Source: Gemmatimonadota bacterium
Lineage (GTDB): Bacteria > GCA-2686955
Direction of reading: 5' to 3'
DNA length: 17,936 bases
Assembly: GCA_002686955.1 (NCBI GenBank)
Contig: NYZA01000032.1
Span: forward strand, 1 to 17,936
A program made the translations under genes and the position numbers. The notes below the pieces were generated by a model. That model was given only the letters and a program-made list of their open reading frames with translations. It was not told the DNA's origin and did no database searches. This document shows positions 112-17,936 of the stretch, piece after piece. Numbering within the stretch: position 1 is the stretch's first letter; each line of letters opens with the position of its first letter.

Positions 112-219
112 GACTGGATTGTCTTCGGCGCGCAGGCCAGCGATCTGTCGTTCGGGCGTTATCCGGACGGTCTCGAATCGTTGGTCACGCTCGATGCGGC
201 GTCGCCGGATGGCGTGAAT
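112..219 (+). pseudogene. relic of a lamin-tail (LTD) domain, C-terminal part
   Basis: Read on the plus strand in the frame beginning at 112, this stretch gives DWIVFGAQASDLSFGRYPDG (112-171), then a short linker and SPDGVN (202-219). This is the usual end of a bacterial lamin-tail domain (PF00932), where an FGPQ-x-x-DVS-x-GR-x-PDG segment is followed by TPG-x-x-N. The frame has a stop at 40-42 and no ATG between that stop and the domain, and I cannot recognise the N-terminal half of the domain in any of the three plus frames upstream, so the gene looks truncated or frameshifted. The frame stays open to a TAA at 421-423, antisense to the 3' end of the beta-helix gene, but the residues after 219 look unlike any domain. 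Similarity is judged by eye. Nothing else was recognised in 1-111. Confidence 0.5.
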
Positions 220-1889: not shown

Positions 1890-1913
1890 TGGGTACTACA
1901 CCTCGATGTCGGA

Positions 1914-4385
1914 CTAGTCCAACCGTCGCTCCCGCTTCACCGGTACTGCGCAGCAATCCGGCTCAGGTGGCGCCAGCGGCGGAAGATCGTTCGACTCCGA
2001 TCGGCTCATGCCGGCGATCATCTCGACAACGCGGGAGGGCTGTTGTGGAATGCTCCATGCGAGTACCGGCGATAGCCGGCAGAAGATGGGGTCGGTCTCG
2101 TGTTCCATGAACTCGATCGCCTGCAAGTACAGCTTCTTGGTGTTCTCCGGGAGAGACGCCACATCGAGAGCGAACTCCGCCTCCCCCTCTCCAAAGCCAT
2201 CGTCCTCCGCGATCTCGCAGCTCTCGCTGATCTGAAGATCCTCCGGTCTCAGCTCCCACGCGACGATGTTCTCACATTGAGCTGTACACGGTTCGCCGAC
2301 CGGAGCGGTCCCTTCGCCCAAGCTCCACGCGAGCCGAATACTGCTCCCGATATGGGCCTTCGATACCATCACGGTGTAGATGCTCAGGCTTTGGGGCTGC
2401 GAAGGCTCTCTCACCAGGAGCGGCCACCCGTCGGTGGCGCCGAGGTCGGGGCCTCCGCCTCTGAAAGGCTCACGTCCGAAGGCGTATGAGCGCGGATGCG
2501 GTGCGGCGTCGTAGCCATGCTCCTTCACTTCGACATCGACCGCGCGATCGAGCACCCATCGCGCGGAGGCCGGCCCGCCTTTTCGCACGCCTTCCGATCT
2601 GAGATCGGCGCGAACGGAGTTTAGATCTCCCGGCTTCGGGCTATCGTCGCCGACGATGCCCCAGTTCGCCGTTCGGCGCTGACCGCCCGGATCGAAGGGG
2701 ATGTGGTCCAAAACCACCGAATGGCAATCGCCGCCGATCGCCGTCTGCCAGCGGCAGAGACTCTCCCAGGGGCCGAGAGCTGCATCCCAATGGCCGAATC
2801 GTCTGTACTCCGTCGATGTCTGGTACAGATTGTAGTCGACATCAAAGGTGCCGGTGCCCACTACCGCGCCCTTCGCGAAGCTGAAGAGCTTGTCGACGAG
2901 CGGTTTGCATGCGGAGTTCGGGATTTGGGGGCAAAACCCTGGTGGTGCGCCGCCAGACTCACAGACGCACCATCGGTTCGAGAGATTTTGAATGATGTTG
3001 TTCTTGATGTAGATGTCTCGGTTCAATAGATGCTGTTCGTTTCCCTCTTCCGGAGTGGAGCAATAGCGGTCCCCGCTGTTGAAGACGCAGTACGTCGTGT
3101 TGCAGTTCTCGCCATTGTCGCCGGCCAGGTCCTCCTCACATTGATAGATCACATCTCCGAACGTGAATACCATTCCACCATTTATCAACGTGTTGTTGTA
3201 GATGTGGGCATTCGAGACGCTCTGCCCGCGAATGGCGCTGCCTCGAGTGGCGCCATCACCATCGATGCGGCAAACGACGACGTTGTTGTAAACCCACACA
3301 TCTTCAAGCTGGTAAGGATACATCACATAATCGGGGTCCCTCCCGGATACCCCCGACCCACCGCCGAGCATGATTCCGCCATCATCGGCATGATACACAT
3401 AGTTGTCATGAATCGCCCAGTCGCTCGCCTCCAGCTTGACCATGATGCCATCCAGGCGCGTATGATAGAAACGGTTGTGGCGCACCGTCCCACCGTCGAT
3501 CCCCACTGAATCGAAGCCGTGCTCGCCGCACTGTGAAACGATGCAATGCTCGACGATCGTATCGTCGCCACCTCCGAGCACGCGGATACAATCGTCGGCG
3601 AAGTACACATCGGCCCCCGCCGGCCGGTTTTGATCCCAAACGCGGCCGGAAAAGCCGACGACCAGACGGCTCAAGATGTCGCGGGCGCCGGCGGCGTGAA
3701 CCATCTGGAGTAGACGCGTGGTCTTGCCACCCTTGACGCGCGGGGTGAACTGATCGATGTGACGTTCGAGAGTGAAGTCTCGGGCTGTGACGTCATCGCC
3801 GGCGACGACGAGGGGGGAGACTTGGGGGATGTTGATGGCCTCGCCTTCGTCACAGAGGTATTCGGGCGGGCACGGCTCCTCCGCCGGCACCACATCGAGA
3901 ATCGACGCCGCAGCATCCGGCACATCCCCGCGCCAAGTGGTATTCGCCTCGGTGATCCACAGCCCCGGCTCACCGCCGGTGATGGTGTGGGAGCCGGCCA
4001 GGTAGACCACATCGCCGGGGCCGATCGACTCGGCGCCGTCAAGGCAGTCGTTGGGCGGAGTGTCGACCGCGTCGTACCACCTGTCGCAGTCTCCCCCCCA
4101 AGCCCTCTGAAACTGAAACGCATTCACCCCACAGAGCCCCGCGCACTCGTCGATCTGGTCGTAGCACACGATCTCCATCTCGCCCCTCAAACCGAGGTCA
4201 TCGGCCAGGATCCAACACGGGCTCTCTTCGCTGCCGCAATCCGGGAAATCCTCCAGCTCGAAGCACCATGTCGTGGGCGGATCCACGCCGACTTCGCCCG
4301 GCGACTCAGCCGATTGGGCGCGAGAACCACCACCGATCAGAATGGCCCAGATCGCCGTCACGAGCAACCCGCCCCCGCCCCTCAT
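1914..4385 (-). CDS. exported cysteine-rich parallel beta-helix protein
   Basis: The 823-aa product starts at the ATG 4385-4383. That codon overlaps the TGA of the upstream gene (ATGA) and is preceded by GGGGAGG. An in-frame extension to 4727 only duplicates the upstream gene in another frame. Residues 1-25 form a signal peptide. The middle third carries beta-helix (PbH1-type) steps such as DDTIVEHCIVSQCGEHGFDS, GTVRHNRFYHTRLDGIMV, WAIHDNYVYHADDGGIML and VYNNVVVCRIDG, with a longer 'right-handed helix' region between about residues 150 and 550. GAxDG near the end of the helix resembles the closing DxGAxxG of the family. The C-terminal 150 residues look like a separate beta-rich domain ending with a double cysteine (DCC). 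I count about 30 cysteines, many in close pairs, which suggests disulfide bonding outside the cytoplasm. No enzymatic motif was recognised. It sits between the paralog pair and the other beta-helix gene, and the four probably form one transcript. Confidence 0.8.
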   Translation of the reverse strand: MRGGGGLLVTAIWAILIGGGSRAQSAESPGEVGVDPPTTWCFELEDFPDCGSEESPCWILADDLGLRGEMEIVCYDQIDECAGLCGVNAFQFQRAWGGDCDRWYDAVDTPPNDCLDGAESIGPGDVVYLAGSHTITGGEPGLWITEANTTWRGDVPDAAASILDVVPAEEPCPPEYLCDEGEAINIPQVSPLVVAGDDVTARDFTLERHIDQFTPRVKGGKTTRLLQMVHAAGARDILSRLVVGFSGRVWDQNRPAGADVYFADDCIRVLGGGDDTIVEHCIVSQCGEHGFDSVGIDGGTVRHNRFYHTRLDGIMVKLEASDWAIHDNYVYHADDGGIMLGGGSGVSGRDPDYVMYPYQLEDVWVYNNVVVCRIDGDGATRGSAIRGQSVSNAHIYNNTLINGGMVFTFGDVIYQCEEDLAGDNGENCNTTYCVFNSGDRYCSTPEEGNEQHLLNRDIYIKNNIIQNLSNRWCVCESGGAPPGFCPQIPNSACKPLVDKLFSFAKGAVVGTGTFDVDYNLYQTSTEYRRFGHWDAALGPWESLCRWQTAIGGDCHSVVLDHIPFDPGGQRRTANWGIVGDDSPKPGDLNSVRADLRSEGVRKGGPASARWVLDRAVDVEVKEHGYDAAPHPRSYAFGREPFRGGGPDLGATDGWPLLVREPSQPQSLSIYTVMVSKAHIGSSIRLAWSLGEGTAPVGEPCTAQCENIVAWELRPEDLQISESCEIAEDDGFGEGEAEFALDVASLPENTKKLYLQAIEFMEHETDPIFCRLSPVLAWSIPQQPSRVVEMIAGMSRSESNDLPPLAPPEPDCCAVPVKRERRLD

Positions 4386-4819
4386 GGCCTCCCCACCAGC
4401 TCGGCCCCGAACACCACGTACTGTGTCGAAAGCGTGTCTTGAAACTCCACCTCCCAGCGAACGAATCGGCCCAGAGGCACGTTCGAATTGGTCGAGAGCA
4501 GCGCGTGCTCTCCCTTCGGTGTGGTGTCGCTTGCTTCGTTGAAGACCAGAGAGAGCACCGTCTCGAAATCGGTTTCGGCCAATGTGTTGGCGGTCTGGGC
4601 GTGGAGCTTCACCCAGCGATTGCTCGCCAGGCTCACCTCGCTGATCCTGATGTCGATCACGACATCGCGGTCGAAGCAGAAGTCCCAGATCTCGTCTTGG
4701 GGTTGAGCGACGTGCCGAGTCGTGCAATGGACCTTGATCCCAGGCTCACGATGAATCGTGGCGCCCAACGTGGCCCCGACCAGGAGAACGAACGCTCCCA
4801 CCTCGATCGAGCGTGACAC
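4382..4819 (-). CDS. small exported protein, second copy of a tandem paralog pair
   Basis: The 145-aa product has a hydrophobic N terminus (about residues 8-20, GAFVLLVGATLGA) consistent with a signal peptide. The mature part resembles the product of the gene just upstream: both have QPQD(D/E)(L/I)WD (39-46 here), an RD(I/V) a few residues later, and NS-x-PLGRF(L/V)RW-x-V-x-F-x-DT-x-S-x-Q near the C terminus (PLGRFVRW at 115-122 here). The alternating polar/hydrophobic pattern suggests a small beta-sandwich. I do not recognise the family and assign no function. The start is a GTG at 4819, three bases after the upstream stop (TGA 4825-4823), with only a weak ribosome site. The stop overlaps the ATG of the downstream beta-helix gene by 4 bases, pointing to translational coupling. 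It has two cysteines after the signal peptide region (32 and 48). Confidence 0.75.
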   Translation of the reverse strand: MSRSIEVGAFVLLVGATLGATIHREPGIKVHCTTRHVAQPQDEIWDFCFDRDVVIDIRISEVSLASNRWVKLHAQTANTLAETDFETVLSLVFNEASDTTPKGEHALLSTNSNVPLGRFVRWEVEFQDTLSTQYVVFGAELVGRP

Positions 4820-5416: not shown

Positions 5417-5650
5417 ATGGAACAGATGACAATCACGGAGTTCAAGGCTCGCTGCATCGCCGTGCTCAAGGAGGTTCAGGCCAGCGGGCGGCCCTTGGTC
5501 GTCACGCTGCGGGGGCGTCCTTTGGCCCGCGTGGAGCCGGCGGGCACGGACCCGGATGGGCCGCGTCTCGGTGTTCGTGAGGGCGACATGAAGATCCGGG
5601 GGGATATCGTCTCGTGCGATTTCACGGATGAGTGGGAGATGGAGCGTTGA
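5417..5650 (+). CDS. Phd/YefM-family antitoxin
   Basis: The 77-aa product matches type II antitoxins of the Phd/YefM family. The N-terminal DNA-binding and dimerisation part (about 1-42) reads MTITEFKARCIAVLKEVQ and then PLVVTLRGRPLARVEPA, with the typical 'vTk-r-grP-arv' hairpin. The C-terminal tail (about 50-77), GVREGDMKIRGDIV followed by an acidic FTDEWEME, is the kind of flexible arm that threads into the toxin. It should neutralise the PIN toxin encoded next and repress the shared promoter through the palindrome at 5386-5403. The ATG at 5417 coincides with the predicted transcription start. The ATG at 5426 is an alternative but has no better ribosome site. The stop overlaps the toxin start. 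Confidence 0.88.
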   Translation: MEQMTITEFKARCIAVLKEVQASGRPLVVTLRGRPLARVEPAGTDPDGPRLGVREGDMKIRGDIVSCDFTDEWEMER

Positions 5651-6048
5651 ATCTGCTCCTCGACACCCATGTATGGGTCTGGACCCAGGAACTCTCGACG
5701 GGATTGGGCGCCCGCGCGCGGGCATTGATCGGGGACCGCGACAACAGCTTGGCGGTGGCGACTGTCTCCACTCTCGAGATTGCACGGCTCATCGAGTCGG
5801 ATCGAATCTCGCTCGAAGGAACACTTCAATCGTGGATTCGTGACACGCTCACCGCTCTTCGGGCCCGAACGATTGAGCTCTCCCACGAGGTCGCCGCTTT
5901 GGCCTATGCGCTCCCGGGGCGGTTCCATCGAGATCCTGCGGATCGAGTTCTCGTGGCTACCGCGATGCACGAGGGGCTCACGGTGCTGACCGGGGATCGT
6001 CGCATACTGGATTATCGACGGGTCTCGTCGGTGGATGCGCGGAAGTAG
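5647..6048 (+). CDS. PIN-domain toxin (VapC-like ribonuclease)
   Basis: The 133-aa product is a compact PIN domain. It begins MNLLLDTHVWVW, as in many toxins paired with Phd/YefM antitoxins. The acidic metal-binding residues are visible: D6 (LLDTH), E44 (STLEIA), D99 (in RDPADR, with D96 nearby) and D117 (TGDRR). Such toxins are Mg-dependent endoribonucleases that cut tRNA, rRNA or mRNA; the target cannot be read from sequence. I chose the TTG at 5647 because it overlaps the antitoxin stop (TTGA) and has GGGAG (5634-5638) 8 bases upstream. A GTG at 5632 would lie inside the antitoxin gene and would leave that ribosome site unused. All four key acidic positions are present, so the toxin looks intact. 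Confidence 0.88.
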   Translation: MNLLLDTHVWVWTQELSTGLGARARALIGDRDNSLAVATVSTLEIARLIESDRISLEGTLQSWIRDTLTALRARTIELSHEVAALAYALPGRFHRDPADRVLVATAMHEGLTVLTGDRRILDYRRVSSVDARK

Positions 6049-6161: not shown

Positions 6162-7025
6162 TCAGGCCCGCAGATACTCCTCCATACGCGCCAGCTGCTG
6201 GCGGAAGAAATCGACGCCCCAAGCGTCCAGGCTGGGCTGGTCTCGAAGGGGCAGGAAACGAGCGATGTCAGCGCGGGCGAGCGGCCAATCGATCGCATCG
6301 ACACGCTGGCGCATCGCCTCCAGAAACCACTGGGCTCCGACCGGTGGACTGAGATTCGCCCATGGCCCTTGTTGCGCCAGCGCGTTTGCCAGCAGCTCGA
6401 AGCTCGGCTCGAGCCGCCGGCGGATGTACCAGGCCAGGTCCCACCAGTCGCGGCCCTTGGTGTAGCTGCGGCAGAGCAACGCATGGGATTTCAGGGCGAA
6501 GCTCGACTCCAGGGTTTGGGTGGCGATCGGGGATGTCACCGGAAAGTCGAGGTAGCGAATTTCGCCCAGCGAACCGGCAGGCGGGTTGGTGTCGATCTCG
6601 AGCTTGATACGGATTTTCCCTCGTGCGGGTCTGGAGTAGGGTAGGTCGAGCAGCAGCAGTTTGCCGATCGAGTCGGTCTTGAGAAACGCCGTCTTCACGG
6701 CGCTTCCGGCGCGCGAGCGGTCCTGGGCCTCAAAACCGATCCCCTGGGCGAGACAGTCTTCACGGACCTGAGCCGCGATCGACTTCCAGTCAAACGAGGT
6801 TTCCGGCTCGTTCAAGAGGAAGTCGAGATCCTCGGAGAATCGGTCGGTGCCGTAGAGCAGTCGCAGGCAAGTTCCGCCGTGGAAGAGGGCGCGCGAGAAC
6901 AAGCCGCTCTTCGCCAGGCTCACGAGCACGAGCTGTTGCAGCAACTCGTGGATCACCAACTCCTGTTCGAAGGCATTTCGCGGACCGTACTCGGCGATGC
7001 GCGCCTCGAATCGTCGTTCGATCAC
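6162..7025 (-). CDS. AbiEii/AbiGii-family nucleotidyltransferase toxin
   Basis: The 287-aa product is a type IV toxin-antitoxin nucleotidyltransferase (PF08843). The nucleotidyltransferase signature is HGGTCLRLLYG followed by RFSEDLDF (49-69), with the metal-binding pair D66 and D68. Later family motifs are KIRIKLEIDTN (137-147) and KGRDWWDLAWY (190-200). In the AbiE phage-exclusion system the toxin is bacteriostatic and uses NTPs to modify its target; related enzymes (MenT) modify tRNA. The start is a GTG at 7025-7023 that overlaps the antitoxin stop (GTGA), with AGG 8 bases upstream. The reading frame continues upstream to 7250 but only antisense to nothing useful and within the antitoxin gene, so that extension is rejected. 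The toxin looks full length with the active site intact. Confidence 0.88.
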   Translation of the reverse strand: MIERRFEARIAEYGPRNAFEQELVIHELLQQLVLVSLAKSGLFSRALFHGGTCLRLLYGTDRFSEDLDFLLNEPETSFDWKSIAAQVREDCLAQGIGFEAQDRSRAGSAVKTAFLKTDSIGKLLLLDLPYSRPARGKIRIKLEIDTNPPAGSLGEIRYLDFPVTSPIATQTLESSFALKSHALLCRSYTKGRDWWDLAWYIRRRLEPSFELLANALAQQGPWANLSPPVGAQWFLEAMRQRVDAIDWPLARADIARFLPLRDQPSLDAWGVDFFRQQLARMEEYLRA

Positions 7026-7675
7026 GACTCGATCCTCTCCACGAGATCGGTAAGCAGGTGGCGAGCTTTCCGGCTTCGAAGCGCGGAAACGACCTCCGCG
7101 AGATCGCTGCAGTCGAGTGCCGCGAGATCTTCGTGGTCGACTCGCATCGAATCGGTCAGAAACTCGAGCCCCCGTCCGGCGTTGATTTCGCGCTTGCGCA
7201 GGTAGAAGAGATCGGCGATCGCTCGTAGCGGCGTGGCGACGAAGGCCCACTCGCCGCGCCCGAGCTTCAGCGCCCGGACTCCGGCCATCGGATCGTTGCT
7301 GGGCACCCGGGTGTACGAGTAGTGCCCCAGCACCGTTCGGTACTCACGCGAGCGCCGCGCGGTCACGCTCGATACGCCGAGCACCGCTTCGGGGATCATC
7401 CCGTGATGAGCGAGCGCCGCCTCCAGGCTGATATGAGAGGGCCAGTGGAGCATGGCGGCCAGGGCGAAAGGGTGCGTGTGGGAGTGGCGGAAGGCCTCAT
7501 CGAGACAGTAGAGCCCAGCCTTCACGCGGTGCACCTCTCCGCGGCGGGTGGCGCGGTGCACGAGAGCCCTCCGGGCGCCCACCCTCAGGTCGGCGAAGAG
7601 CACACGCAGCACCGCCTCGTCGAACAGGCCGCCGGGCGGAGAGAGGTCGTGGACGCGCCGTGTGAGAGTCTGCAT
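7022..7675 (-). CDS. AbiEi-family antitoxin / transcriptional regulator
   Basis: The 217-aa product precedes and overlaps the AbiEii toxin, the usual order in type IV AbiE modules. The N-terminal part, about 17-60, contains VLFADLRVG and then VHRATRRGEVHRVKAGLYCLD, a winged-helix-like segment with the 'G-x-l-x-rv-x-xGlY' phrase of these antitoxins. The middle reads HPFALAAMLHWPSHISLEAALAHHG and later FVATPLRAIADLFYLR, matching the C-terminal AbiEi domain pattern ('ATPEKAL-D'). AbiEi proteins repress their own promoter by binding inverted repeats and neutralise the toxin. I chose the ATG at 7675; an in-frame start at 7714 would place the inverted repeat at 7688-7704 inside the gene. No ribosome site precedes 7675, which fits a very short or absent leader. 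Confidence 0.8.
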   Translation of the reverse strand: MQTLTRRVHDLSPPGGLFDEAVLRVLFADLRVGARRALVHRATRRGEVHRVKAGLYCLDEAFRHSHTHPFALAAMLHWPSHISLEAALAHHGMIPEAVLGVSSVTARRSREYRTVLGHYSYTRVPSNDPMAGVRALKLGRGEWAFVATPLRAIADLFYLRKREINAGRGLEFLTDSMRVDHEDLAALDCSDLAEVVSALRSRKARHLLTDLVERIES

Positions 7676-7685
7676 TTCTGCACGG

Positions 7686-7714
7686 AAATTACGAGATTCG
7701 TAATCGCCGCGCAA
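7686..7714 (-). promoter_or_regulatory. probable AbiE promoter with inverted-repeat operator
   Basis: On the minus strand, TTGCGC (7714-7709), a 17-base spacer and TAATTT (7691-7686) form a weak promoter pair, each box matching three of six consensus bases. ATTACGA (7688-7694) and TCGTAAT (7698-7704) are perfect 7-base inverted arms around GAT, spanning the spacer and part of the -10 box. AbiEi antitoxins bind inverted repeats in this position. Transcription would start about 7679, four bases before the ATG. The boxes are weak; the inverted repeat is the stronger evidence. Confidence 0.5.
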
Positions 7715-8009: not shown

Positions 8010-8681
8010 ATGTTTCCATCTTCGCAGAAGAAGCGTTCTTCGGGTCCCGCCACTGTTTTCTTGGCGGCTCTGCTCGGCGTATCGATCGCGGTCGTGTTGC
8101 CGGCGGGCTCCACGGCGGAGGAATCCACGGAGTCCAACAAGAGGATTCGCCTTGCGCTCGACGATCTGGTGGCGAAGAGTCGAAGCGCAACCTGGTTTCA
8201 GCGCACCTGGGAACGCAAGGGCGATGAAGAGGAGCGGACGGAATCGGATGCGTACTGGGCCGGCCAGGATCGGATACGACTCGACATTCATGAGGGCCGC
8301 GGAGCCGGCAGCACGGCGATTCTACGAGGAAACAAGGTCACGGGGTTCAAACGCGGTTGGTTGAGCTTCGCGAAGATGAGCTTCGACGTCGACGCCGAGC
8401 GAGTTCTCTCCTTGCGCGGCCACTCGATGGCCAAGGCCGGGTTTTTTGATGATTGCAGCTACGTGTTGGAACACTGGGACGAGATCGAATCGAAAACGGA
8501 CAGCGCCGGAGTGGTGCTGAGATATCGAAACGCCGCCGGCAATCGCACCGATCTCTGGCTAGATCTGGACAACTTCGTTCCGATGCGCATGGAGGTCAGA
8601 GTGAACGAGACCGTCGTCGCGCGCACAGCATACGAGCGGGTGGTGCTCAACCCGCTCCTGGACGACGATCTCTTCGAGTAG
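8010..8681 (+). CDS. exported LolA-fold-like protein (DUF1571-like)
   Basis: The 223-aa product has a positively charged start and a hydrophobic stretch (about 14-31, PATVFLAALLGVSIAVVL) ending in AGSTAEE, which is a signal peptide or membrane anchor. The body has repeated beta-strand pairs: SATWFQRTWERKG (59-71), DRIRLDIHEGRGAGSTAIL (about 87-105), a GWLSF-x-KMSFD segment, and DLWLDLDNFVPMRMEVRVN near the end. This layout fits the half-barrel of periplasmic lipid-carrier proteins such as LolA and resembles DUF1571 proteins. The match is by pattern only; an undefined periplasmic lipid-binding role is an inference. It ends against the convergent lipid-transport operon, which encodes another LolA-like protein. 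The ATG at 8010 lies 8 bases after a TATTAT box and lacks a ribosome site, so it may be leaderless. Confidence 0.6.
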   Translation: MFPSSQKKRSSGPATVFLAALLGVSIAVVLPAGSTAEESTESNKRIRLALDDLVAKSRSATWFQRTWERKGDEEERTESDAYWAGQDRIRLDIHEGRGAGSTAILRGNKVTGFKRGWLSFAKMSFDVDAERVLSLRGHSMAKAGFFDDCSYVLEHWDEIESKTDSAGVVLRYRNAAGNRTDLWLDLDNFVPMRMEVRVNETVVARTAYERVVLNPLLDDDLFE

Positions 8682-8723: not shown

Positions 8724-9701
8724 TTACACCATTCCGGCACTCTCGAAGAACGCAATCGTGTCTCGAATCGTCTCTTGCATGGGGCGCGGATCGTGGCCGA
8801 GCTCGGCGCGCGATTTCTCGAGCGAGATGCGCGGGTTGTCGCCGAGGATTCGAACCGCTTCGCTCGTGTAGATCGGTTCGACGCCGATGCGTGCGCTGAG
8901 CCATTCGACCGCGGGAGCGGTCGCGAGAGCGACCCACCGCGGAACCGCGAGCCGTGCTCCGCGACCACCGGTGAGCTCGGCCACCGCGTTCGAGAGATCG
9001 AGCACCGAGCTGACGTGCCCCCCCAGCAGGTAGCGTTCGCCGCGACGGCCCCTCTCGCTCGCGTCGACCGCGGATGTGGCCACATCTCGCGCGTCCACGA
9101 AATTGTAGGCCCCATCGATGAGCGCGGGCAGCTTGCCTTGCCGCAGCCAAAGCAAAGTCCTCCCGAAGAGCGAAGGACCGAAATCGTTGGGACCGAAGAG
9201 CCCGGAGGGATTGACTATCACTGCATCCAGCCCCGCCTCTACACCGGCGAGCACCTCTCTCTCACCCGCGGCCTTGGAGAGTGCGTAGGCAGAGTGTTGC
9301 GTCCCGTGGACCAGTGCGCGGCCCTCGTCGATCGGCTCGTCGTCCGGATCTGGCACTAGAGAATGAACCGAGCTGACATGAACCAGACGCTTGACTGAGC
9401 GCGCCATTGCCGCGCGCACCACATTGCGCACTCCCCCGATGTTGATTCGCTCAACCAATCCGCCCTGATTGCCGGCGATCGACACTACGGCGGCGCAATG
9501 GAAGATCAGCTCGGCCCCGTCGAACGCCGACTCGAGGGAGGCGGAATCGAGCACATCTCCGCGTACGACCTCGAGATCGAGTCCATCGATCGCTTCTGTG
9601 CCAGCGAAGACCATGGCGCGCGTGGGAATCCCGCGACCAAGCAGCTCCCGAACCAGATTGCAGCCCAGGAACCCTTCCGCACCGGTAACGACTGCAAGCA
9701 T
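8724..9701 (-). CDS. NAD(P)-dependent extended SDR (HpnA / 3-beta-HSD-like)
   Basis: The 325-aa product is an extended short-chain dehydrogenase/reductase. The Rossmann motif TGAEGFLG is at 6-13 and the GDV adenine-ring site at 48-50. HCAA lies at 68-71, the active-site serines in VHVSSVHS (107-114), and the catalytic YxxxK at Y139/K143 (SAYALSK). VIVNPSGLFGPND and GERYLLGG follow, as in HpnA, dihydroflavonol-reductase and 3-beta-hydroxysteroid dehydrogenase-like enzymes. The C-terminal ISLEKSRAELGHDPRPMQETIRDT also fits that group. It probably oxidises or reduces a hydroxyl or keto group on a hydrophobic cyclic substrate; the exact substrate cannot be read. It is the last gene of the lipid-transport operon, with its ATG 7 bases after the stop of the PRISE reductase gene and only a short AGGA as ribosome site. 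Confidence 0.8.
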   Translation of the reverse strand: MLAVVTGAEGFLGCNLVRELLGRGIPTRAMVFAGTEAIDGLDLEVVRGDVLDSASLESAFDGAELIFHCAAVVSIAGNQGGLVERINIGGVRNVVRAAMARSVKRLVHVSSVHSLVPDPDDEPIDEGRALVHGTQHSAYALSKAAGEREVLAGVEAGLDAVIVNPSGLFGPNDFGPSLFGRTLLWLRQGKLPALIDGAYNFVDARDVATSAVDASERGRRGERYLLGGHVSSVLDLSNAVAELTGGRGARLAVPRWVALATAPAVEWLSARIGVEPIYTSEAVRILGDNPRISLEKSRAELGHDPRPMQETIRDTIAFFESAGMV

Positions 9702-9708
9702 ATCCTGC

Positions 9709-10938
9709 CTACTTTGGAATGACGCCCGTGTCGCGCAGCTCCTGGAAGAGAGCCGTGAAAGTCTCCGCGGCGCTCGGGTAATGATCGAAGCCGGCCGAGT
9801 GCGCTTTGCTCATGTCGTAAACCGCGTCCCAGTCGATCGCCATGGAGCGGTCGATGAAGTCTCCCGATGCCAACTCGTGCAGAGGATCGGTGCGCAGCCC
9901 ATGCCTCGCGACAAGTTTCTCCCACAGCGGCCGGTGCTCAGCAAAGAAGCGGGTCATCGAAACACCCTTCTTGGGCCATGCCGGCTCGAGCTCGAACCAG
10001 GCAGCGATCTCGGGCCACAGATCTCGCCACTGGAAAGGCTCCAATCCCGTACAGTTGAATGCCTGGTTGGCTGCCGCCGGAGCTCGAGATGCCCAGATCA
10101 TCATCCTCGCCAGCTGCTTTGCCGATGTCACGCACCAACGACAGTTCGCGTTTCGCTCGTCGCCGAAGAAAGCAAGCGGCATCTCGAGCGCCCTGCAAAG
10201 CGCTGCGTAGGCAGCCAGACTGCAACCGAAATTGTATGGAGAGCCAAGTCCATAACCAACAATGAACGATGGACGGAAGATGGTCCAGGTCCATTGCCCC
10301 GCCCATCTTCTCAGCATGTCCTCATTCTCGTAGTACCAATTCGGACCGGGGCAGCGCGGACTCTCGTCTTCCCGATACGGTGTCTCGTGTTCCTTGAAGA
10401 GCCTGGGACCGAGGTGCATTCCGTAGTGCTTGCCTCCGGTCACTACGCAGACATGTCGCAGCGCGTGCGATTTCCCCTCCAGTGCGGTCAAGAGGTTCTC
10501 CAGCATCGCCCGATTCCGCCCCTCGGGATCCGCGGCGCCCGATTCTAGGGCCGCCTTGGCGTAGAGGGCCCGAGCGGCTGGGGGCACAAGCTCGAGCAGA
10601 GGCAAAGCGCGAGCCGCCAGGCGAACTTGTCGGCGCAGACTGCGCACATTGGGCGGGCGGCGATCGAGCGGTCGCCATGACTGGTACTGAACGGTATAGA
10701 AAAGGTGACTAATCGAGAAGGGAGCGAGACGTTCTCGCACTAGGTTCCCCTCGAGCAGATCGGCGGCGACCGTGTGCACGTCGACGCGCTCGTCGGGCAC
10801 CGGCCGCACGTCCAGAGCTACCACTTTCCAGCCATCTGCAGCCAAAGCATCCACGGCTGCCCGGCCCGCTATCCCGGCGCTTCCGGCTACTAGGGCGGTG
10901 GGCGCCGCACCGTGTCGATCGGACTGTGCTCCATCCAT
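9709..10938 (-). CDS. PRISE-family enone reductase (SDR, progesterone 5-beta-reductase/iridoid synthase-like)
   Basis: The 409-aa product carries the distinctive motifs of the PRISE group of SDRs. These are an unusual nucleotide loop VAGSAGIAG (17-25), VVTGGKHYG (165-173), the NWYY-x-x-ED segment (200-207) and WTWTIFRPSFIVGYG (216-230). In this group Lys and the first Tyr of NFYY are catalytic; here K170 and Y202 are 32 residues apart, the same spacing as K147/Y179 of the Digitalis enzyme. These enzymes use NADPH to reduce the C=C bond of activated enones such as progesterone or 8-oxogeranial. About 50 residues between 88 and 137, rich in Arg, Ala and Leu, look like an insertion relative to the plant enzymes. 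The gene starts 2 bases after the RND permease stop, so it is cotranscribed with the transport genes. Confidence 0.82.
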   Translation of the reverse strand: MDGAQSDRHGAAPTALVAGSAGIAGRAAVDALAADGWKVVALDVRPVPDERVDVHTVAADLLEGNLVRERLAPFSISHLFYTVQYQSWRPLDRRPPNVRSLRRQVRLAARALPLLELVPPAARALYAKAALESGAADPEGRNRAMLENLLTALEGKSHALRHVCVVTGGKHYGMHLGPRLFKEHETPYREDESPRCPGPNWYYENEDMLRRWAGQWTWTIFRPSFIVGYGLGSPYNFGCSLAAYAALCRALEMPLAFFGDERNANCRWCVTSAKQLARMMIWASRAPAAANQAFNCTGLEPFQWRDLWPEIAAWFELEPAWPKKGVSMTRFFAEHRPLWEKLVARHGLRTDPLHELASGDFIDRSMAIDWDAVYDMSKAHSAGFDHYPSAAETFTALFQELRDTGVIPK

Positions 10939-10940
10939 GG

Positions 10941-13244
10941 CTACTTGCCCCGGCGCCGGCTCAGGATCGCGGGCACGAGAGTTGCATTCGTCGCCAAAGC
11001 CACGAGCAAGATGAACGCAACCATGGTGCCGAAGTACCGATTCGGAATGAACGAAGCTGCCGCGAACACGCCGAAGCCGCTAACGAGAATCACTGTCGTT
11101 ACTACCAAGGGTGGCAGGGTATGAGTGAACACTTCGGCGATCGCTTCTTCCGGCTCGCGCCCCGTATTGCGAACACGGTTGAAATTGGTGAGGAAGTGAA
11201 TCGTGTAGTCTACGGCAATTCCCAGGCAAGTACTGAACACTACTACGGTGCCGATATCGAGCGGGCGACCGATCGCCACGAGAAGCCCCGCGCCGATCAG
11301 CAGCGGAACGGCGTTCGAGATCATCGCCATGCCTCCAAGATAGAGGGAACGATAGACGCCGATGAGAAGTACGCTCATCAGCAACACCGCTGAGCATATC
11401 GATGCGACGAATGCACGAACCACGTACGGATTCATGCGTTGATATAGCTGGTTCTTGCCGGTGATGTGGGCATCGAGGCCAATCGCTTCCGCCTCTTTCT
11501 CAATCGTCTCGATCTCGCGGAGAACGCTTCGTGAATCATGTATGTTCCACATGGTCGTGATTCGAAGCGCATCGTTGCGTACCGACACTCTGTCGTTCAG
11601 GTCCATTCCCTGCGGCAGACTCAGCGTGTAGAGGAGATACTGCTGCGCAACCCCTTCTCTAGTGGCAGGTATGGCGTAGGCGGTCGGGTCATCTCCGTGC
11701 AAGGACCGATTCGTCGCTTTGAGGATGTCGATGAGTGAGAGCGCGCTGGTCACATAGGGCTTCGCCGCTACCCACGCCTGGAGCTCGTCCGCGCGCCGCA
11801 AGAAGGCTGGAGCTAATGCTCCTTCCGGCTCACCGGAATCGACGACGATCTCGATCGCGATCGAGCCGCCCACATGCTTCTCCAGAAAACTCGAGGCGAT
11901 GTTGAGGGGGGAGTCGTCCGGGAAATAGCCCAGGGGGTCGGAGTTGACCTCGGTTTGCGTCACGAGCGTAAAGGCGAGGGCGGTGACGAGGCAGAACGCG
12001 CTCAGGATCGATCGGCGACGGCGGCCGATGAGCGCGGCATTTCGCAGGCCTCGGGCCGACGCGGTCTGGAGGTCGCCCGCTCGCGAGATCTTTCGATTCC
12101 GCGCGGGCACGAGCACCAGAAGCGGCCCCAAAACGAGGTATGTGATCAGCCACGCGATCAGCGTTCCGAGACCAGCCATGGTCCCCATTTGACCGATCGG
12201 TACTACGTCGGCGGTCGAGAAGCTGAAGAAACCGATCGCCGTGCTGACACTGGTGAGAAGTGTCGGTTGAAAGTTCTTCAGAAGTGCATGGTGGGCGGCC
12301 TCCGAGTTTCCCGCTCCTCTCCCTCGCGCTCGATGATGTGTTGCCAAGATGTGGACGGAATCGGCCACGGCGATCGCCAACAATATCTGGGGAACGGCCG
12401 ATGTGATGTTGTTGATTGAGATGCCGAGCCAGCCGGCCGCGGCCATCGTTGCCGTGATCGACAGAGTGATGACGGCAAAGGGGAGCAAGACGCCGGGCGC
12501 ACTTCGGAAAAAGAGCAGCAGGAAGAGAACGGTCAGACCGATCGTCAACGGCAGCAGACGCAGGATGTCGACCTCCATGGCCTCTTTGAAGCTGTGCGAG
12601 ATCGCCGGGGAACCGGCCTGCATGAGCGTGTGGTCGCCGCGACCTTCGAACTCGACGATCAGATCGCGCGTTGCGGTCACAACCGTTTCGTAGGCGGTGC
12701 CGCTCTCCTTCAGGGCCGGCCGCAGCTTGGCGACCAGGAGCGCCGTGCGTGCGTCCGCGCTCACCAAGTTGCCCGGAATGGTCTCATGGGCAAGCGCAAC
12801 CGCGCGCCGTTCATCGAGCAGCCCCTGAGTGAGCTCCATATCGTCGGGGATCAAGGGCTCGACCACGAGCTCGTCGTGGTCCGCGTGCACCCAGTTGAAG
12901 TTCGACAGGGATTCAACGCGGAGTACCTCCGGCACGCGCCACAGGCGATCGGTCAGCTCCATGAGCAGCTCGGCGGAGTCGACATCGAAGACACCCGAAG
13001 GACTGTGGACGATGACCAGGACCGCCTCGTCGTTGCCAAAGCGACGCTCGAAGGAGTCGAACTCCAGCAGCAGGGGATCGTCGTCGTTGAACCAAATCCG
13101 ATAGCTGAAATCTGTTTCGAGCCTCGCCCCGCCCGGTAGCAACAGGGCGACGATCGCCAACCCGAGGCAGAGGGCCCGCCACGGCCGATCCAACACCCAC
13201 GACACGAATCGTTCGGAAAGGGCGCGACGCTCCGAAGGGCTCAT
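10941..13244 (-). CDS. RND-superfamily permease, HAE3/MMPL-type
   Basis: The 767-aa inner-membrane protein has the duplicated RND layout: one TM (22-37), a large periplasmic loop, five TMs (about 228-380), then again one TM (412-430), a loop and five TMs (about 608-762). The two halves carry the intramembrane acidic residues expected for proton coupling, IAVADSVHIL (D295) and LGIAVDYTIHF (D679). IWFNDDDP and FERRFGNDEAVLVIV (51-80) are typical of the HAE3 group, which is linked to hopanoid, lipid and other hydrophobe transport (HpnN and mycobacterial MMPL are relatives). I chose the ATG at 13244, with GGGGGA 10 bases upstream, over a TTG at 13280 that would overlap the barrel gene. It sits between genes for an outer-membrane barrel and two SDRs, so it probably works with the barrel and LolA-like proteins. 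Confidence 0.88.
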   Translation of the reverse strand: MSPSERRALSERFVSWVLDRPWRALCLGLAIVALLLPGGARLETDFSYRIWFNDDDPLLLEFDSFERRFGNDEAVLVIVHSPSGVFDVDSAELLMELTDRLWRVPEVLRVESLSNFNWVHADHDELVVEPLIPDDMELTQGLLDERRAVALAHETIPGNLVSADARTALLVAKLRPALKESGTAYETVVTATRDLIVEFEGRGDHTLMQAGSPAISHSFKEAMEVDILRLLPLTIGLTVLFLLLFFRSAPGVLLPFAVITLSITATMAAAGWLGISINNITSAVPQILLAIAVADSVHILATHHRARGRGAGNSEAAHHALLKNFQPTLLTSVSTAIGFFSFSTADVVPIGQMGTMAGLGTLIAWLITYLVLGPLLVLVPARNRKISRAGDLQTASARGLRNAALIGRRRRSILSAFCLVTALAFTLVTQTEVNSDPLGYFPDDSPLNIASSFLEKHVGGSIAIEIVVDSGEPEGALAPAFLRRADELQAWVAAKPYVTSALSLIDILKATNRSLHGDDPTAYAIPATREGVAQQYLLYTLSLPQGMDLNDRVSVRNDALRITTMWNIHDSRSVLREIETIEKEAEAIGLDAHITGKNQLYQRMNPYVVRAFVASICSAVLLMSVLLIGVYRSLYLGGMAMISNAVPLLIGAGLLVAIGRPLDIGTVVVFSTCLGIAVDYTIHFLTNFNRVRNTGREPEEAIAEVFTHTLPPLVVTTVILVSGFGVFAAASFIPNRYFGTMVAFILLVALATNATLVPAILSRRRGK

Positions 13245-13263
13245 CTTCGTGGATTCCCCCGTG

Positions 13264-14520
13264 TCAGAAGTGACGAGCAAAAGTGACCTCGAACGAATGA
13301 TCGCCGTCCAGAGCGCGGAGACCGTCGCCGTCTTCGGAATCGGCGCGGATCGCGCGTAGCGCCCCTTGCGCGCGCCAGGTATCGGAGAGTCTCTGCGCGT
13401 AGCTCAAATAGGCGAGCGCCTCCGATCGACCGTCGACGTCTATGATCGCTCCGGCAGCGAGCTCCCTGCCATGCAAGTCGTTGAACCCATGGTAGTAACC
13501 GATCAGAAGATCGCGCTGAAAAGGGTGCAGCCGTGCTCGTTCGCGGGCGGAGGTTCCCGCGATCGCCTGCCCCTCGAACACCACGGTGGCGTCGTGCCCA
13601 TTGGAGTATGACCAGCCGTGCTCCAGTCCGAAGGCCATTTGGTCGTGGTCAATCCCCGCCTGATCCTCAAGTGGTTGGAATGACCCCAAATCGACGGGGG
13701 AATCAAGATCGCTGTGCGCGTATTCGGCCTTCAGCAACCAGTCTCCGATCGCCTGAGCATAGGAGCCTCCGACCTGTGCCACGCCGTGGTGGAGCGGCCG
13801 AAGGGTGGCGCTCGAAGGGTCGATTACGAAGGTCGGGTGCGATCGATCGTGGTGCCTGAGCGCGTGCACTGCGATGTCGGCGCTCCCGATGGTCTGTAGG
13901 ATTCGCACCGCCCATCCATGCGTGAATCGATCGGAGGAAACCGACCCGTCGGCTTCGATCCACAGCGGCCGGCCCAAAGGCGCGGGGAAAAGGCTCAAGC
14001 GTGACACGGGATCCGGAAAACGGTGCTCGATGCGCAGCGGCATGTAGTAGACGGTCATGCCGCCCGTGCCGATGGCAACCCGAGCCGAGAACACCGGTTC
14101 ACCGATCTTCTCGGCGTCTTCCAAGTCGGAATCGAAATTGCGCGCATTCATCACGTCGGCTGGATGAAAGGCATCCGTCGCCGTCCAACTGAGCAGCTGA
14201 GCGCCGGCTCGAATGCGGAAGCGACCGCCGCGAAGCCCCACCCAGGCCTCTTCAACCACGAGATCCGCACGTGTCGAATCGATCGCGCCGACCCGCCCGA
14301 AGATCCGGAGCTTCGTTCGCCATGGACGGTTTCTGCTCTTCAGCTCGAGTCGGGCGGAAAGCGCCAAACCCTGGTCTTTGGTGGCGGCGACACCGTCCGG
14401 AAGGAAAGCGCGACCTTCGAGCGCGAGTGAACCTTGACTCGAGAGCTCCCCGCGAGCGGTACCTGCTGCCAATGCCAGCGCAACGGCCGACGCGATCGAA
14501 CGAACGCCCAATCTACTCAA
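13264..14520 (-). CDS. outer-membrane beta-barrel protein (DUF1302-like partner of RND permease)
   Basis: The 418-aa product has a signal peptide (about 6-24, ending ARG-ELSS). It is rich in short alternating strands with turns and ends in the sequence FARHF, the terminal Phe recognised by the BAM complex. The segment GAQLLSWTATDAFHPADVMN, followed by RNFDSDLED, is of the type seen in DUF1302-like barrels that sit beside HAE3 RND permeases and LolA-like proteins. A channel or docking role for a hydrophobic substrate at the outer membrane is inferred. The TTG at 14520 overlaps the upstream stop (TTGA). A second in-frame TTG at 14511 has better spacing (about 8 bases) to GGGGA and may be the true start, giving 415 aa. 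Nineteen bases separate its stop from the permease start. Confidence 0.75.
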   Translation of the reverse strand: MSRLGVRSIASAVALALAAGTARGELSSQGSLALEGRAFLPDGVAATKDQGLALSARLELKSRNRPWRTKLRIFGRVGAIDSTRADLVVEEAWVGLRGGRFRIRAGAQLLSWTATDAFHPADVMNARNFDSDLEDAEKIGEPVFSARVAIGTGGMTVYYMPLRIEHRFPDPVSRLSLFPAPLGRPLWIEADGSVSSDRFTHGWAVRILQTIGSADIAVHALRHHDRSHPTFVIDPSSATLRPLHHGVAQVGGSYAQAIGDWLLKAEYAHSDLDSPVDLGSFQPLEDQAGIDHDQMAFGLEHGWSYSNGHDATVVFEGQAIAGTSARERARLHPFQRDLLIGYYHGFNDLHGRELAAGAIIDVDGRSEALAYLSYAQRLSDTWRAQGALRAIRADSEDGDGLRALDGDHSFEVTFARHF

Positions 14521-15302
14521 TCCCCGAGATTCTCGCTCTCGAACTCATCGTCGTCGAGCTTCGCGCCCAACCGCCGCTCCTGCCAGGTCAGGATCGATCG
14601 TTTCGCGGTCTGGTGGTTCTCCACATCGATCCTGCCGGGGCGGAACCACCGCCCGTATCTACCGTAATCGGAAAAGAGCATGGTCTTCAGTAGCTCGTTC
14701 TTGCGATCGTAGAACTCGATCTTGATCGGCGCGTGATACTCCTGATCGGTCCAGACGATCTGTCGCCTGTAGCCGGAACGCTCGTCTCTCGGTACCTGCT
14801 CCGTCACCCACGTCGCACGCCCCTCGATCATCTCGTCACGTAGATAGCCGTGTTCGTACTTCTCGACCTCTCGACTCCCCAGATCTTCGAAGGCGAACTC
14901 GCTGCCCATGAATGCACCTGATCTGCTACGCGAGCTGATCCGCCTGACCCGGTGTAGCGATGGAAGGTACAGCCACTGGTCATCGTCTCTCTCCAAATGC
15001 CCCCAAGTGAGCAGGCGTGTGCCCTTCACATCGGCCGGCCATTCGAAGGTCATCACGGATTGATCACCGTCGCCCTCCGTCTCTCTCATCTTGGTGCTCA
15101 TCCGCCGGACCATCCGGTCACCCCGAGCGTTGATCAAGACCATTTCCATCCGCGAGATCTCGCTCTCGTAGCCCGCGTTGAAGCGGTCGACCTCTGTGGC
15201 GATCTCGAGTCCCCGGCTCTCTGGCGCAGGCGTCTGGGCGCAGGCGACATCGAGCAGGATTGATGCTTGAACGCAGAGAAGGGCCGGCAACGTGCGGGTC
15301 AT
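14517..15302 (-). CDS. LolA-like periplasmic 'outer membrane lipoprotein-sorting' protein
   Basis: The 261-aa product has a signal peptide (about 1-22) and the clear family pattern of PF17131-type LolA-like proteins. The markers are VKGTRLLTWGHLERDDDQWLY (from about 92), LPSLHRVRRISSRSRSGAFMGS, EFAFEDLGSREVEKY, then WTDQEYHAPIKIEFYDRKNELLKTM and the closing ENHQTAKRSILTW. These proteins are usually encoded next to HAE3 RND permeases and DUF1302-type barrels. They are thought to carry a lipid or other hydrophobe through the periplasm, rather than lipoproteins as LolA does. Here the gene is followed with a 4-base overlap by the barrel gene and preceded by a FadL-type gene 14 bases away. Length and motifs are complete. 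Confidence 0.88.
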   Translation of the reverse strand: MTRTLPALLCVQASILLDVACAQTPAPESRGLEIATEVDRFNAGYESEISRMEMVLINARGDRMVRRMSTKMRETEGDGDQSVMTFEWPADVKGTRLLTWGHLERDDDQWLYLPSLHRVRRISSRSRSGAFMGSEFAFEDLGSREVEKYEHGYLRDEMIEGRATWVTEQVPRDERSGYRRQIVWTDQEYHAPIKIEFYDRKNELLKTMLFSDYGRYGRWFRPGRIDVENHQTAKRSILTWQERRLGAKLDDDEFESENLGD

Positions 15303-15316
15303 GTCGATTCTCGATC

Positions 15317-16675
15317 CTATTGCCGGTATCTCAATCCAGCGATCACGATATTGTAAGCGGCGCTATAGCGCCCGTTGGCGACTTGAGTTGTTTCGAAAGG
15401 CCCCAATGCTACGGCTTCGGGCCGCAACACCGAATCCTCCACGATCACATCATCTTGGAGGAAATGGGCGGCCGCGAGCTCGAAGCTCCAATGATCGCCT
15501 AGTCCGTACGACAACCCGCCAGTGAGACCGATACGATTGTTGTCTGGCGTGCCTACGTTGTAGGTCTTGGTAGGTACTGACGGTGTCTCGTAGAAGACGC
15601 CCGCGCGCCATCCAAGGCGATTGCCTGGAGGATGATAACGGACCCCCAACCGAATCGACCACGCATCGTCGAGCAGCTGCGGCAGAGCGACCGTCGCGAG
15701 CTCCTCTGTCATGGCGGAGCTATCGGCCTCGTCAGCGCCGATTCGCACGACGATGTTCGTGGGTTCCAGGCGCAGACTGTCGGCGACACTCCACAGCTCG
15801 ACATGAAAGGCGCTCTCGATCCAGACGCCTTCCGACAGTTCGTATGCCACGCCGCTGCGCAGCAGCCATGGCAGCTCCAGCTCGAATCGGGCGGAATCGC
15901 CTTCGATGGTCAGGCCGAACATGTTGGCGATATCCGGCATGTCGAGATACAGATTAATGTCGTCTCTATCGCGCACGGGGCTCTGCGCCGAAGCCGCGAT
16001 CCGGAATCGTTCCGCCGGCACCCAAGTCACGCCGGCATTCCAGGTATAGTCGATGCCGAATGAGTCTAGCGTGGCGTCGATATCTTGCCCGAGCAAAGAA
16101 AAAGGCGAGAGCAGTTTGAAGCGGGCTCGCAGCCCCAACGCGACGGCCTGCGCTCCGGCACCGATCCGCAGCCAGGAAGAGGGGCTCCAGGACAGGGCTC
16201 CTCCAAGATAGTACGTGAAGCTCGTATTGTCGACGAAAGTGTAGCGCGTCGGGCCGTCGGGATCGTAGCGAAACCGGCCCTGATACGGACTGAATGTGCC
16301 GGCGGCGACAGCCCAGTCCCCCACATCCCAAACGCCTGCCAGAGTTGGAATGAAGACAGGGCCGTGGATGTTCTTGGCGGGCGCATGATCGAACGACCTG
16401 GAGTTCTCCAGATCAAGGAAACCGGTGGGCTCACGATAGAAAGTATGTAGCGTGTGAACCCCGGCCACATCGACCGCGAAATGGCGCCCCTCGCCAAGGT
16501 CGACCAGGTTGGCCGGGTTGTGCCAGATCGCGGTCGGGTCGATTCCGGCGGCCACGAATGCACCACCCGACCCGAGCGCCTGCGTGCCGTTGGATGGCAC
16601 ATAGTAGCCCGAAGCAGCCGAGCGCGAGGGCGCGGCGCATATCAGGGCGAGGCCGATCCAGAGAAGCACTATCAT
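15317..16675 (-). CDS. FadL/OmpP1-family outer-membrane hydrophobe transporter
   Basis: The 452-aa product has a signal peptide (1-20). The mature N terminus SGYYVPSNGTQALGSGGAFVAA, with DPTAIWHNPANL soon after (about 46-57), is the hatch-domain signature of the FadL family ('G-GGA...D-sA...NPAgl'). The rest alternates beta strands and loops, including LSWSPSSWLRIGAGAQ, RIAASAQSPV and WSIRLGVRYHPPG, as in a 14-strand barrel. FadL proteins let long-chain fatty acids and other hydrophobic compounds (toluene, steroids in some bacteria) cross the outer membrane by lateral diffusion. The ATG at 16675 has GGGGGA 5-6 bases upstream. It is the first gene of the six-gene operon. No promoter is evident in the 62 bp (16676-16737) to the kinase gene, so transcription may start further upstream. 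Confidence 0.88.
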   Translation of the reverse strand: MIVLLWIGLALICAAPSRSAASGYYVPSNGTQALGSGGAFVAAGIDPTAIWHNPANLVDLGEGRHFAVDVAGVHTLHTFYREPTGFLDLENSRSFDHAPAKNIHGPVFIPTLAGVWDVGDWAVAAGTFSPYQGRFRYDPDGPTRYTFVDNTSFTYYLGGALSWSPSSWLRIGAGAQAVALGLRARFKLLSPFSLLGQDIDATLDSFGIDYTWNAGVTWVPAERFRIAASAQSPVRDRDDINLYLDMPDIANMFGLTIEGDSARFELELPWLLRSGVAYELSEGVWIESAFHVELWSVADSLRLEPTNIVVRIGADEADSSAMTEELATVALPQLLDDAWSIRLGVRYHPPGNRLGWRAGVFYETPSVPTKTYNVGTPDNNRIGLTGGLSYGLGDHWSFELAAAHFLQDDVIVEDSVLRPEAVALGPFETTQVANGRYSAAYNIVIAGLRYRQ

Positions 16676-16737: not shown

Positions 16738-17936
16738 CTAGTCGATCCAGCGCTGTAGCAGTGCTTCCAGCTCGTCGCTCGTGAAGGGCTTGCTCAGATA
16801 GTCGTCCATGTCGGCTGCCAGCGCGCGCTCTCGATCTTCAGAGGTTGCGCCCGCGGTCAGAGCGAGAATGGGGATGCGGCCGGCCTCCATGGCGCGAATC
16901 CGGCGGGTCGCCGCGAGTCCGTCGAGAACCGGCATCTGGCAGTCCATGAGCACCGCGTCGAAAATTTGCTCCTGAATCGCTTGAATCGCCTGCTCCCCAT
17001 CTCCTACGACGTGCGATTCATAGCCGAGCTTGGTCAATAGGCCGACCGCGACCCGTTGGTTGATAGCGTTGTCTTCGGCGACCAGAACTCGTCCGCGGCG
17101 CGCCGCTTCGCTCGCTGCCGTGCGCTCACGCGGGGAGACCGTGATCGGCTCCGCTTCAGCGCAAAGTAAGGAGATCAGCGTCGACGCCAGATGCTCGCGG
17201 CGAACCGGCTTTCGCAGATAGGCGAGGATTCCGCCGTGGCGAGCAAGATCCCGGTTCCGCGCGGTTCCGGCCGATGTGAGCATCAAGCACTTCGTGCGTG
17301 CGATCGCGGGGTCGGACTGGATACGTGTTGCGAGCTCGATGCCGTCCATGTCGGGCATGCAGTGGTCGAGCAGTGCCAGCTCGAATGAACAGGAGTCGGC
17401 CGCGCCGGCGCGCAAGGCGCGCAGGGCATCGGGTCCGGACGCGGCGGTGTGAACGAACAGTCCCCAGCGCCGCAGCAGGGTCTCCAGAATCGTTCGGTTC
17501 GTGGCGTTGTCATCGACGATCAAGGCGCGGAGCCCTTCGAGCTGCTCCACTCCGCGCGGGTGGGGCCGTGGCCCCCCAGAAACCTCGAAGACCGCCGTGA
17601 ACCAGAAGCGGCTCCCTGATCCCGGCTCGCTCTCGGCGCCGATTCGCCCTCCCATCAACTCCACTAGGCGTTTGGCGATCGAGAGGCCCAATCCAGTGCC
17701 GCCGAAGCGACGGGTCGTCGAGCCGTCGGCCTGGGCAAACGCCTCGAATATCTGGTCGAGGTCGGCGGCCGCGATGCCGATCCCCGTGTCTCGCACCTCG
17801 AAGAGGAACTCGCTACCGCTCTCTGTCGACCCTGTTTCAGTGCACGAAATGCACACTTCGCCGCCCGGCTCGGTGAATTTGAGCGCGTTGCCGACCAGAT
17901 TCAGCAGTACTTGTCGCAGCCGAATCGGATCGCCCC
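16738..17936 (-). CDS. hybrid histidine kinase, C-terminal part (cut by the right edge)
   Basis: The visible 398 residues are open to the window edge, so the N-terminal sensor and the phosphoacceptor His domain lie outside. The fragment starts inside the HATPase domain at the N box GDPIRLRQVLLNLVGNALKF, followed by DTGIGI (49-54), FEAFAQAD (63-70) and GGTGLGLS (78-85). Two receiver domains follow. Receiver 1 has VDDN, phospho-Asp D190 (LLDHCMPDMDG), MLTSAG and LRKP. Receiver 2 has AEDN, D331 (LMDCQMPVLDG), LTAGA and LSKP. Both look competent. No HPt domain follows; the protein ends RWID, so a separate HPt or response regulator is expected. The architecture is that of BarA/RpfC-type kinases. 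It is on the same strand as and 62 bp upstream of the FadL gene; whether it controls that operon is unknown. Confidence 0.92.
   Translation of the reverse strand, partial: GDPIRLRQVLLNLVGNALKFTEPGGEVCISCTETGSTESGSEFLFEVRDTGIGIAAADLDQIFEAFAQADGSTTRRFGGTGLGLSIAKRLVELMGGRIGAESEPGSGSRFWFTAVFEVSGGPRPHPRGVEQLEGLRALIVDDNATNRTILETLLRRWGLFVHTAASGPDALRALRAGAADSCSFELALLDHCMPDMDGIELATRIQSDPAIARTKCLMLTSAGTARNRDLARHGGILAYLRKPVRREHLASTLISLLCAEAEPITVSPRERTAASEAARRGRVLVAEDNAINQRVAVGLLTKLGYESHVVGDGEQAIQAIQEQIFDAVLMDCQMPVLDGLAATRRIRAMEAGRIPILALTAGATSEDRERALAADMDDYLSKPFTSDELEALLQRWID

Follow-up and report, generated by a model that had tools for sequence, protein, structure and literature searches.

A conserved LolA-barrel-RND transport trio within a close-packed six-gene operon of a Gemmatimonadota bacterium

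Organization of the locus and family assignments

We analyzed a 17,936-nucleotide stretch of DNA (hereafter the window) that is the whole of contig NYZA01000032.1 (C32) in the draft genome of a Gemmatimonadota bacterium (GCA_002686955.1; 4.28 Mb, 270 contigs, 84.5% complete). Its central feature is a set of six open reading frames (ORFs) that follow one another on the minus strand from position 16675 down to 8724 and encode, in order of transcription, two outer-membrane proteins with a periplasmic carrier between them, a permease, and two redox enzymes of the short-chain dehydrogenase/reductase (SDR) type:

15317..16675, minus strand: FadL/TodX-type outer-membrane barrel, 452 amino acids (aa), first gene of the operon; PF03349 E 1.5e-22
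14517..15302, minus strand: LolA-like periplasmic carrier, 261 aa; PF17131 E 3e-58, DUF1329 37.7 bits
13264..14520, minus strand: DUF1302-type outer-membrane barrel (P0003), 418 aa, TTG start; 4-base overlap with the LolA-like gene
10941..13244, minus strand: HAE3-like/MMPL RND permease, 767 aa counted from ATG; an alternative TTG start at 13280 is possible
9709..10938, minus strand: PRISE-family reductase (P0005), 409 aa; PF22917 E 2.5e-20
8724..9701, minus strand: extended SDR, HpnA/SdmB-like (P0006), 325 aa; Epimerase E 2.7e-28

The intergenic gaps are, in gene order, 14, -4, 19, 2 and 7 bases, the G+C content at codon position 3 is high in all six genes, and no promoter or terminator within the operon scored above shuffled sequence. 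The close packing suggests that the genes share one transcript. An earlier description of this locus, which we call the sequence-only reading, had claimed six same-strand genes set -4 to +19 bases apart, and all of the ORFs were present as claimed. Its broad family calls (FadL, LolA-like, barrel, RND, PRISE and SDR) also stood, as did its 12-segment permease; its finer labels (HAE3, HpnA and 3-beta-hydroxysteroid dehydrogenase) proved to be distant resemblances, those to NCBIfam models falling below the curated cut-offs.

The FadL-type protein scored 80.1 bits against PF03349 (gathering score 29.7), which places it in the FadL/TodX family, and its only solved relative found was the toluene channel TbuX (3bry, E 3.9e-10). 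By hydropathy both it and the LolA-like carrier, whose solved relatives are 3bk5, 9tp6 and 4z48, begin with a clear hydrophobic stretch resembling a signal peptide. The 418-aa barrel had no Pfam match of its own; iterated profile searches showed it to be homologous to a family found at the same position in other genomes, DUF1302 being matched by 13 of the 27 members. Structure prediction of this barrel without an alignment was unusable (predicted local distance difference test [pLDDT] 31). The permease matched MMPL (E 1.5e-28), with TIGR00921/HAE3 as its best RND model (178 bits against a cut-off of 352), and its hydropathy profile fits 12 transmembrane (TM) segments, including one that falls below threshold. 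With 116 bits against the HpnN model (cut-off 752) and 32 bits against the BstA model (cut-off 1400) it belongs to neither HpnN nor BstABC, and neither an SQHop cyclase nor a sterol cyclase was found in the genome. The carrier, barrel and permease genes, adjacent and on one strand, make up a LolA-barrel-RND trio.

Among the two enzymes, the PRISE protein is a member of its family (PF22917, 73.3 bits against a gathering score of 27) with iridoid synthase 5dcu as a relative among solved structures (E 4e-38). The SDR scored 237 bits against the HpnA model TIGR03466 (cut-off 368) and 214 bits against the SdmB model NF052578 (cut-off 600) and so falls outside both groups, while its match to PF01073 3Beta_HSD (76 bits) was weaker than that to the general Epimerase family. 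Its motif residues are Ser110, Tyr139 and Lys143, and its nearest solved relative is 3wj7. Hydropathy indicated no TM segments in either enzyme, and both look cytoplasmic.

Conservation of the trio and linkage of the other three genes

The host phylum is barely sampled, being represented by 2 genomes in the collection that we searched. The second of these, from the same family, has no PRISE in its genome and carries a diverged RND-LolA-barrel trio without SDRs. Since it was the only further genome of the host family and phylum, conservation was tested in other phyla; the absences reported here are conditional on the fetched stretches, draft assemblies and stated E-value limits.

Our first RND search found relatives at E ≤1e-30 in 115 of 386 genomes. 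The closest relatives identified overall, at 44–50% identity, came from four genomes of a second phylum, and a tree placed them with the window RND in a fully supported clade of five. At three of these four loci (L175, L176 and L177) the LolA-like, barrel and RND genes occur in the exact order seen in the window, the carrier being 51% identical to its L175 counterpart and the barrel 40% and 34% identical to those of L175 and L176, respectively; the fourth (L174) has the RND gene without a LolA-like gene or barrel. Further afield, a LolA-like gene adjoins the RND gene in 34 of 62 additional RND loci (two of them from the family-mate genome), with a barrel gene as well in 28, most commonly ordered RND-LolA-barrel. 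These counts agree with the sequence-only reading that RND, LolA-like and DUF1302-type barrel genes occur together, and they show that the conserved unit is the trio and not the six-gene set. Separately, a LolA-like and barrel-like pair with no adjoining RND gene is found at 2535-4680 of L115 (contig C267 of the same genome) and 2718-4763 of L118 (the family mate), that is, in both genomes of the host phylum.

The three remaining genes of the operon behaved differently from the trio. FadL, PRISE and a P0006-like SDR were all lacking from the four nearest RND-relative loci (~6-9 kb fetched on either side), and a genome-wide search at E 1e-20 found no PRISE in the same four genomes. Neither PRISE nor FadL was found in the 62 further RND loci, and P0006-like SDRs appeared in only two of them, both without a LolA-like gene and at a distance of at least 2 kb. 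When 115 ORFs near trios were tallied by Pfam family, TetR regulators came first and fatty-acid enzymes were also represented; the 25 families listed included no SDR, PRISE or FadL family, which limits each of these to two members at most. Three trio-bearing genomes (G375, G293 and G205) do contain P0006-like SDRs, but elsewhere in the genome. From the side of the enzyme, a trio stood beside PRISE in 0 of 32 loci (4 from initial scans, 3 annotated plasmids and 25 from the second phylum), one of which had an RND match, though a weak one, at a distance of 2 kb, and a PRISE scan of named genomes gave a single, unlinked relative, in Asaia.

The six-gene order described in the sequence-only reading is therefore not conserved: relatives keep the trio, and FadL, PRISE and SDR lie beside it in no other genome examined. 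Comparative support is likewise lacking for the suggestion that FadL and the two SDRs act with the trio as one linked pathway, and SDR-less trios in relatives are the very outcome that its author had listed as counting against it. The missing linkage elsewhere is compatible with co-function in this one genome, and what would place all six genes in one functional pathway is their spacing. We conclude that the operon is a local elaboration of a known, widespread module.

Features of the PRISE-family reductase

The window PRISE shares with its family the PF22917 profile and the catalytic Lys and Tyr, alignments equating its Lys170 and Tyr202 with the conserved Lys147 and Tyr179 in Digitalis numbering; also conserved are GxxGxxG from residue 19 and Asn142. 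It departs from the family in its setting, a bacterial operon with transporters, and in two features of the protein. First, the second strand is followed by a loop of sequence ALDVRP, in which Asp43/Val44 occupy the place where the family has Ser/Ala and then an NADPH-binding Arg. This arginine (Arg63), whose position is taken by Val44 in the window protein, is strictly conserved in the VEP1 proteins studied (PMC3144213) and is present in 7/7 bacterial PRISEs that we aligned. From Asp43 and Val44 it is reasonable to infer that the enzyme would use NADH.

Second, there is an Arg/Leu/Ala-rich insertion of ~40 residues (~86–125) before Asn142. A frameshift was considered and set aside, as the same insertion is carried by two PRISEs of the second phylum, L150 7469-8740 (minus strand) and L153 1305-2684 (plus strand), and is taken as real for that reason; codon-position G+C was not decisive. 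No transporter genes lie near the L150 and L153 genes, so the insertion marks a PRISE subgroup and not an adaptation to the operon. In both of these proteins the catalytic Lys motif TGGK is replaced by TGGR.

Comparison with characterized systems

Among the closest parallels to the trio is AmeABCD of Castellaniella defragrans, deletion of which lowered monoterpene tolerance and raised Nile Red accumulation (PMC6394551). This cassette likewise combines an HAE3-like RND protein, a LolA-superfamily carrier and a DUF1302-type barrel, is tied to hydrophobe efflux and sits near terpene-chemistry genes. However, its order is barrel, LolA, AmeC, RND, whereas the window operon has another order, lacks an AmeC (BNR/YCF48) gene and includes FadL and two SDRs internally; in addition, the best match of the window carrier is PF17131 and not DUF1329. 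As to the permease and barrel types of the AmeABCD lineage, TIGR00921 is the best RND model here but scores below its cut-off, and DUF1302 is matched by relatives of the barrel and not by the barrel directly.

In Thalassolituus oleivorans, TOL_3187/TOL_3188 and the FadL protein TOL_1625 were raised on the n-C28 alkane (PMC6304351). Here too an MMPL/RND protein and a FadL occur together with a LolA-like domain and a barrel in which no known domain is recognized, but the RND and LolA parts are fused, FadL is encoded elsewhere and neither PRISE nor SDR is described as part of the unit. Pseudomonas putida requires PP_0765/PP_0766 together with PP_2018/PP_2019 on Tween 20 (PMC10866462); a DUF1302 barrel, a DUF1329 carrier and a multidrug-type transporter have linked phenotypes on a lipid-like substrate, although they are split over two loci and involve an extra periplasmic protein, and neither FadL nor SDRs are described alongside. 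A further trio-like arrangement is found on a Sulfitobacter plasmid (L124 1-8957), where a type I polyketide synthase is followed directly by RND and LolA-like genes that are likely an export set for the synthase product. Across the Ame, TOL, PP and Sulfitobacter sets, substrate and direction therefore either vary or are unsettled.

The sequence-only reading had also drawn a parallel to BstABC. In the BstABC/SdmAB system of Methylococcus capsulatus (PMC10942540), an RND gene near an SdmB-like SDR serves envelope hydrophobe transport. The parallel holds at the level of the idea only: BstA, BstB and BstC belong to other families (32/1400 bits for the BstA model) and sterol synthesis genes are present there. 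A search of the host genome detected no squalene or oxidosqualene cyclase, an absence that is suggestive only given an assembly 84.5% complete, and because of it a sterol or hopanoid route in this genome is unlikely.

Proposed role and alternatives

The explanation that we favor, tentatively and with a probability of about 0.4, is that a conserved hydrophobe-moving trio has been joined in this lineage by a FadL channel and SDRs which handle a hydrophobic carbonyl compound from outside. The trio would pick up a hydrophobic molecule at the inner membrane and pass it through the periplasm to the outer membrane or beyond; to this cassette a FadL/TbuX-type channel would have been added in front and two cytoplasmic SDR genes behind. 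A terpenoid-, steroid- or aromatic-like compound would enter through the FadL channel; PRISE would reduce the activated C=C bond of this compound, with the other SDR reducing or oxidizing a carbonyl or hydroxyl. Driven by the proton gradient, the RND/LolA-like/barrel line would then clear the toxic parent compound or its product from the membrane. We favor an outside compound because no cyclase was detected, which speaks against a home-made triterpenoid, and because the only solved relative found for FadL is TbuX; a home-made lipid is nevertheless a possible cargo. The explanation as a whole draws on the conserved order of the core genes, the recurrence of the trio, the hydrophobes handled by its published relatives, the retained catalytic Lys and Tyr of PRISE and the close spacing of the six genes.

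Two observations weigh against this explanation. FadL and both SDRs are unlinked to the trio in every other genome examined, so that their joining may be accidental, and the RND-LolA pair that follows a polyketide synthase on the Sulfitobacter plasmid suggests export of a home-made lipid over clearance of an imported compound.

The first of these observations points to a loose grouping, in which the trio has a job of its own and FadL and the SDRs were rearranged alongside it with only transcription in common. In the other genomes examined, the three extra genes are never linked to a trio, and PRISE/VEP1 genes are spread patchily through lateral transfer (PMC3144213) and occur in unrelated settings. 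However, all six genes are very closely spaced (2–19 bases or overlapping) and their chemistry is compatible, channels for hydrophobes being combined with carbonyl/enone enzymes; we regard an accidental assembly as rather unlikely, though a serious contender.

The second observation would fit a trio that supplies the outer membrane with a home-made lipid, with the SDRs tailoring the lipid during its synthesis and FadL serving as an extra channel for it or a passenger. In addition to the Sulfitobacter pair, the proteins that the SDR most resembles are HpnA and SdmB, members of loci for the synthesis of hopanoids and sterols (PMC10942540), and distant relatives of the permease (HpnN and MmpL proteins) export lipids or siderophores. 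Set against this are the failure of a search of the 84.5% complete genome to find a hopanoid or sterol cyclase, an operon that contains no synthase gene, and the usual role of FadL as an uptake channel. Lipid delivery is accordingly a somewhat weaker candidate than accidental assembly, and we consider it unlikely.

An extended form of our favored explanation, to which we give little credence, would make the operon self-contained, taking up, transforming and exporting an enone-type hydrophobe. In it an unusual PRISE, possibly NADH-using and bearing a membrane-seeking inserted helix, would act at the inner membrane and pass its product straight on to the RND/LolA-like/barrel line. Least probable is a steroid or sterol pathway like that of BstABC/SdmAB, in which the SDR would act as a 3-beta-hydroxysteroid dehydrogenase to make an enone that PRISE reduces to the 5-beta form: the SDR does match 3Beta_HSD and SdmB, and relatives of PRISE include progesterone 5-beta-reductases and iridoid synthases, but the SdmB match is far under its cut-off, 3Beta_HSD is outscored by Epimerase, the low BstA score and the lack of an oxidosqualene cyclase among the search results both speak against it, and PRISEs show promiscuity towards small enones (PMC3144213).

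Trios of this kind are widespread, and one that is apparently co-transcribed with two enzymes gives a handle on its substrate, since candidate ketones and enones can be offered to the enzymes in assays.

Other genes in the window

Upstream of the operon and on the same strand lies a hybrid histidine-kinase/receiver gene (16738-17856, minus strand) with an HATPase and two receiver domains, truncated by the contig end. Its stop is 62 bases upstream of the FadL start, and it may possibly encode a regulator of the operon; the sequence-only reading of the operon does not mention it. At the other end, a convergent gene (8010-8681, plus strand) encodes a secreted-looking protein of 223 aa and stops 42 bases from the SDR stop. 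This protein had no match in Pfam or the PDB, was absent near the other trios examined, and likewise gave an unusable structure prediction (pLDDT 34); the possibility that it is a second LolA-like carrier was unsupported (probability 1.5%, no solved relative).

Elsewhere in the window, 6162-7714 (minus strand) holds the gene for an AbiEii nucleotidyltransferase toxin (PF08843, E 2.4e-31), overlapped by an upstream gene where the AbiEi antitoxin would be expected, and 5632-6048 (plus strand) is a PIN-domain (VapC-like) toxin gene (PF01850, E 2.7e-12). Two large right-handed beta-helix proteins (PF13229) are encoded at 159-4727 (minus strand).

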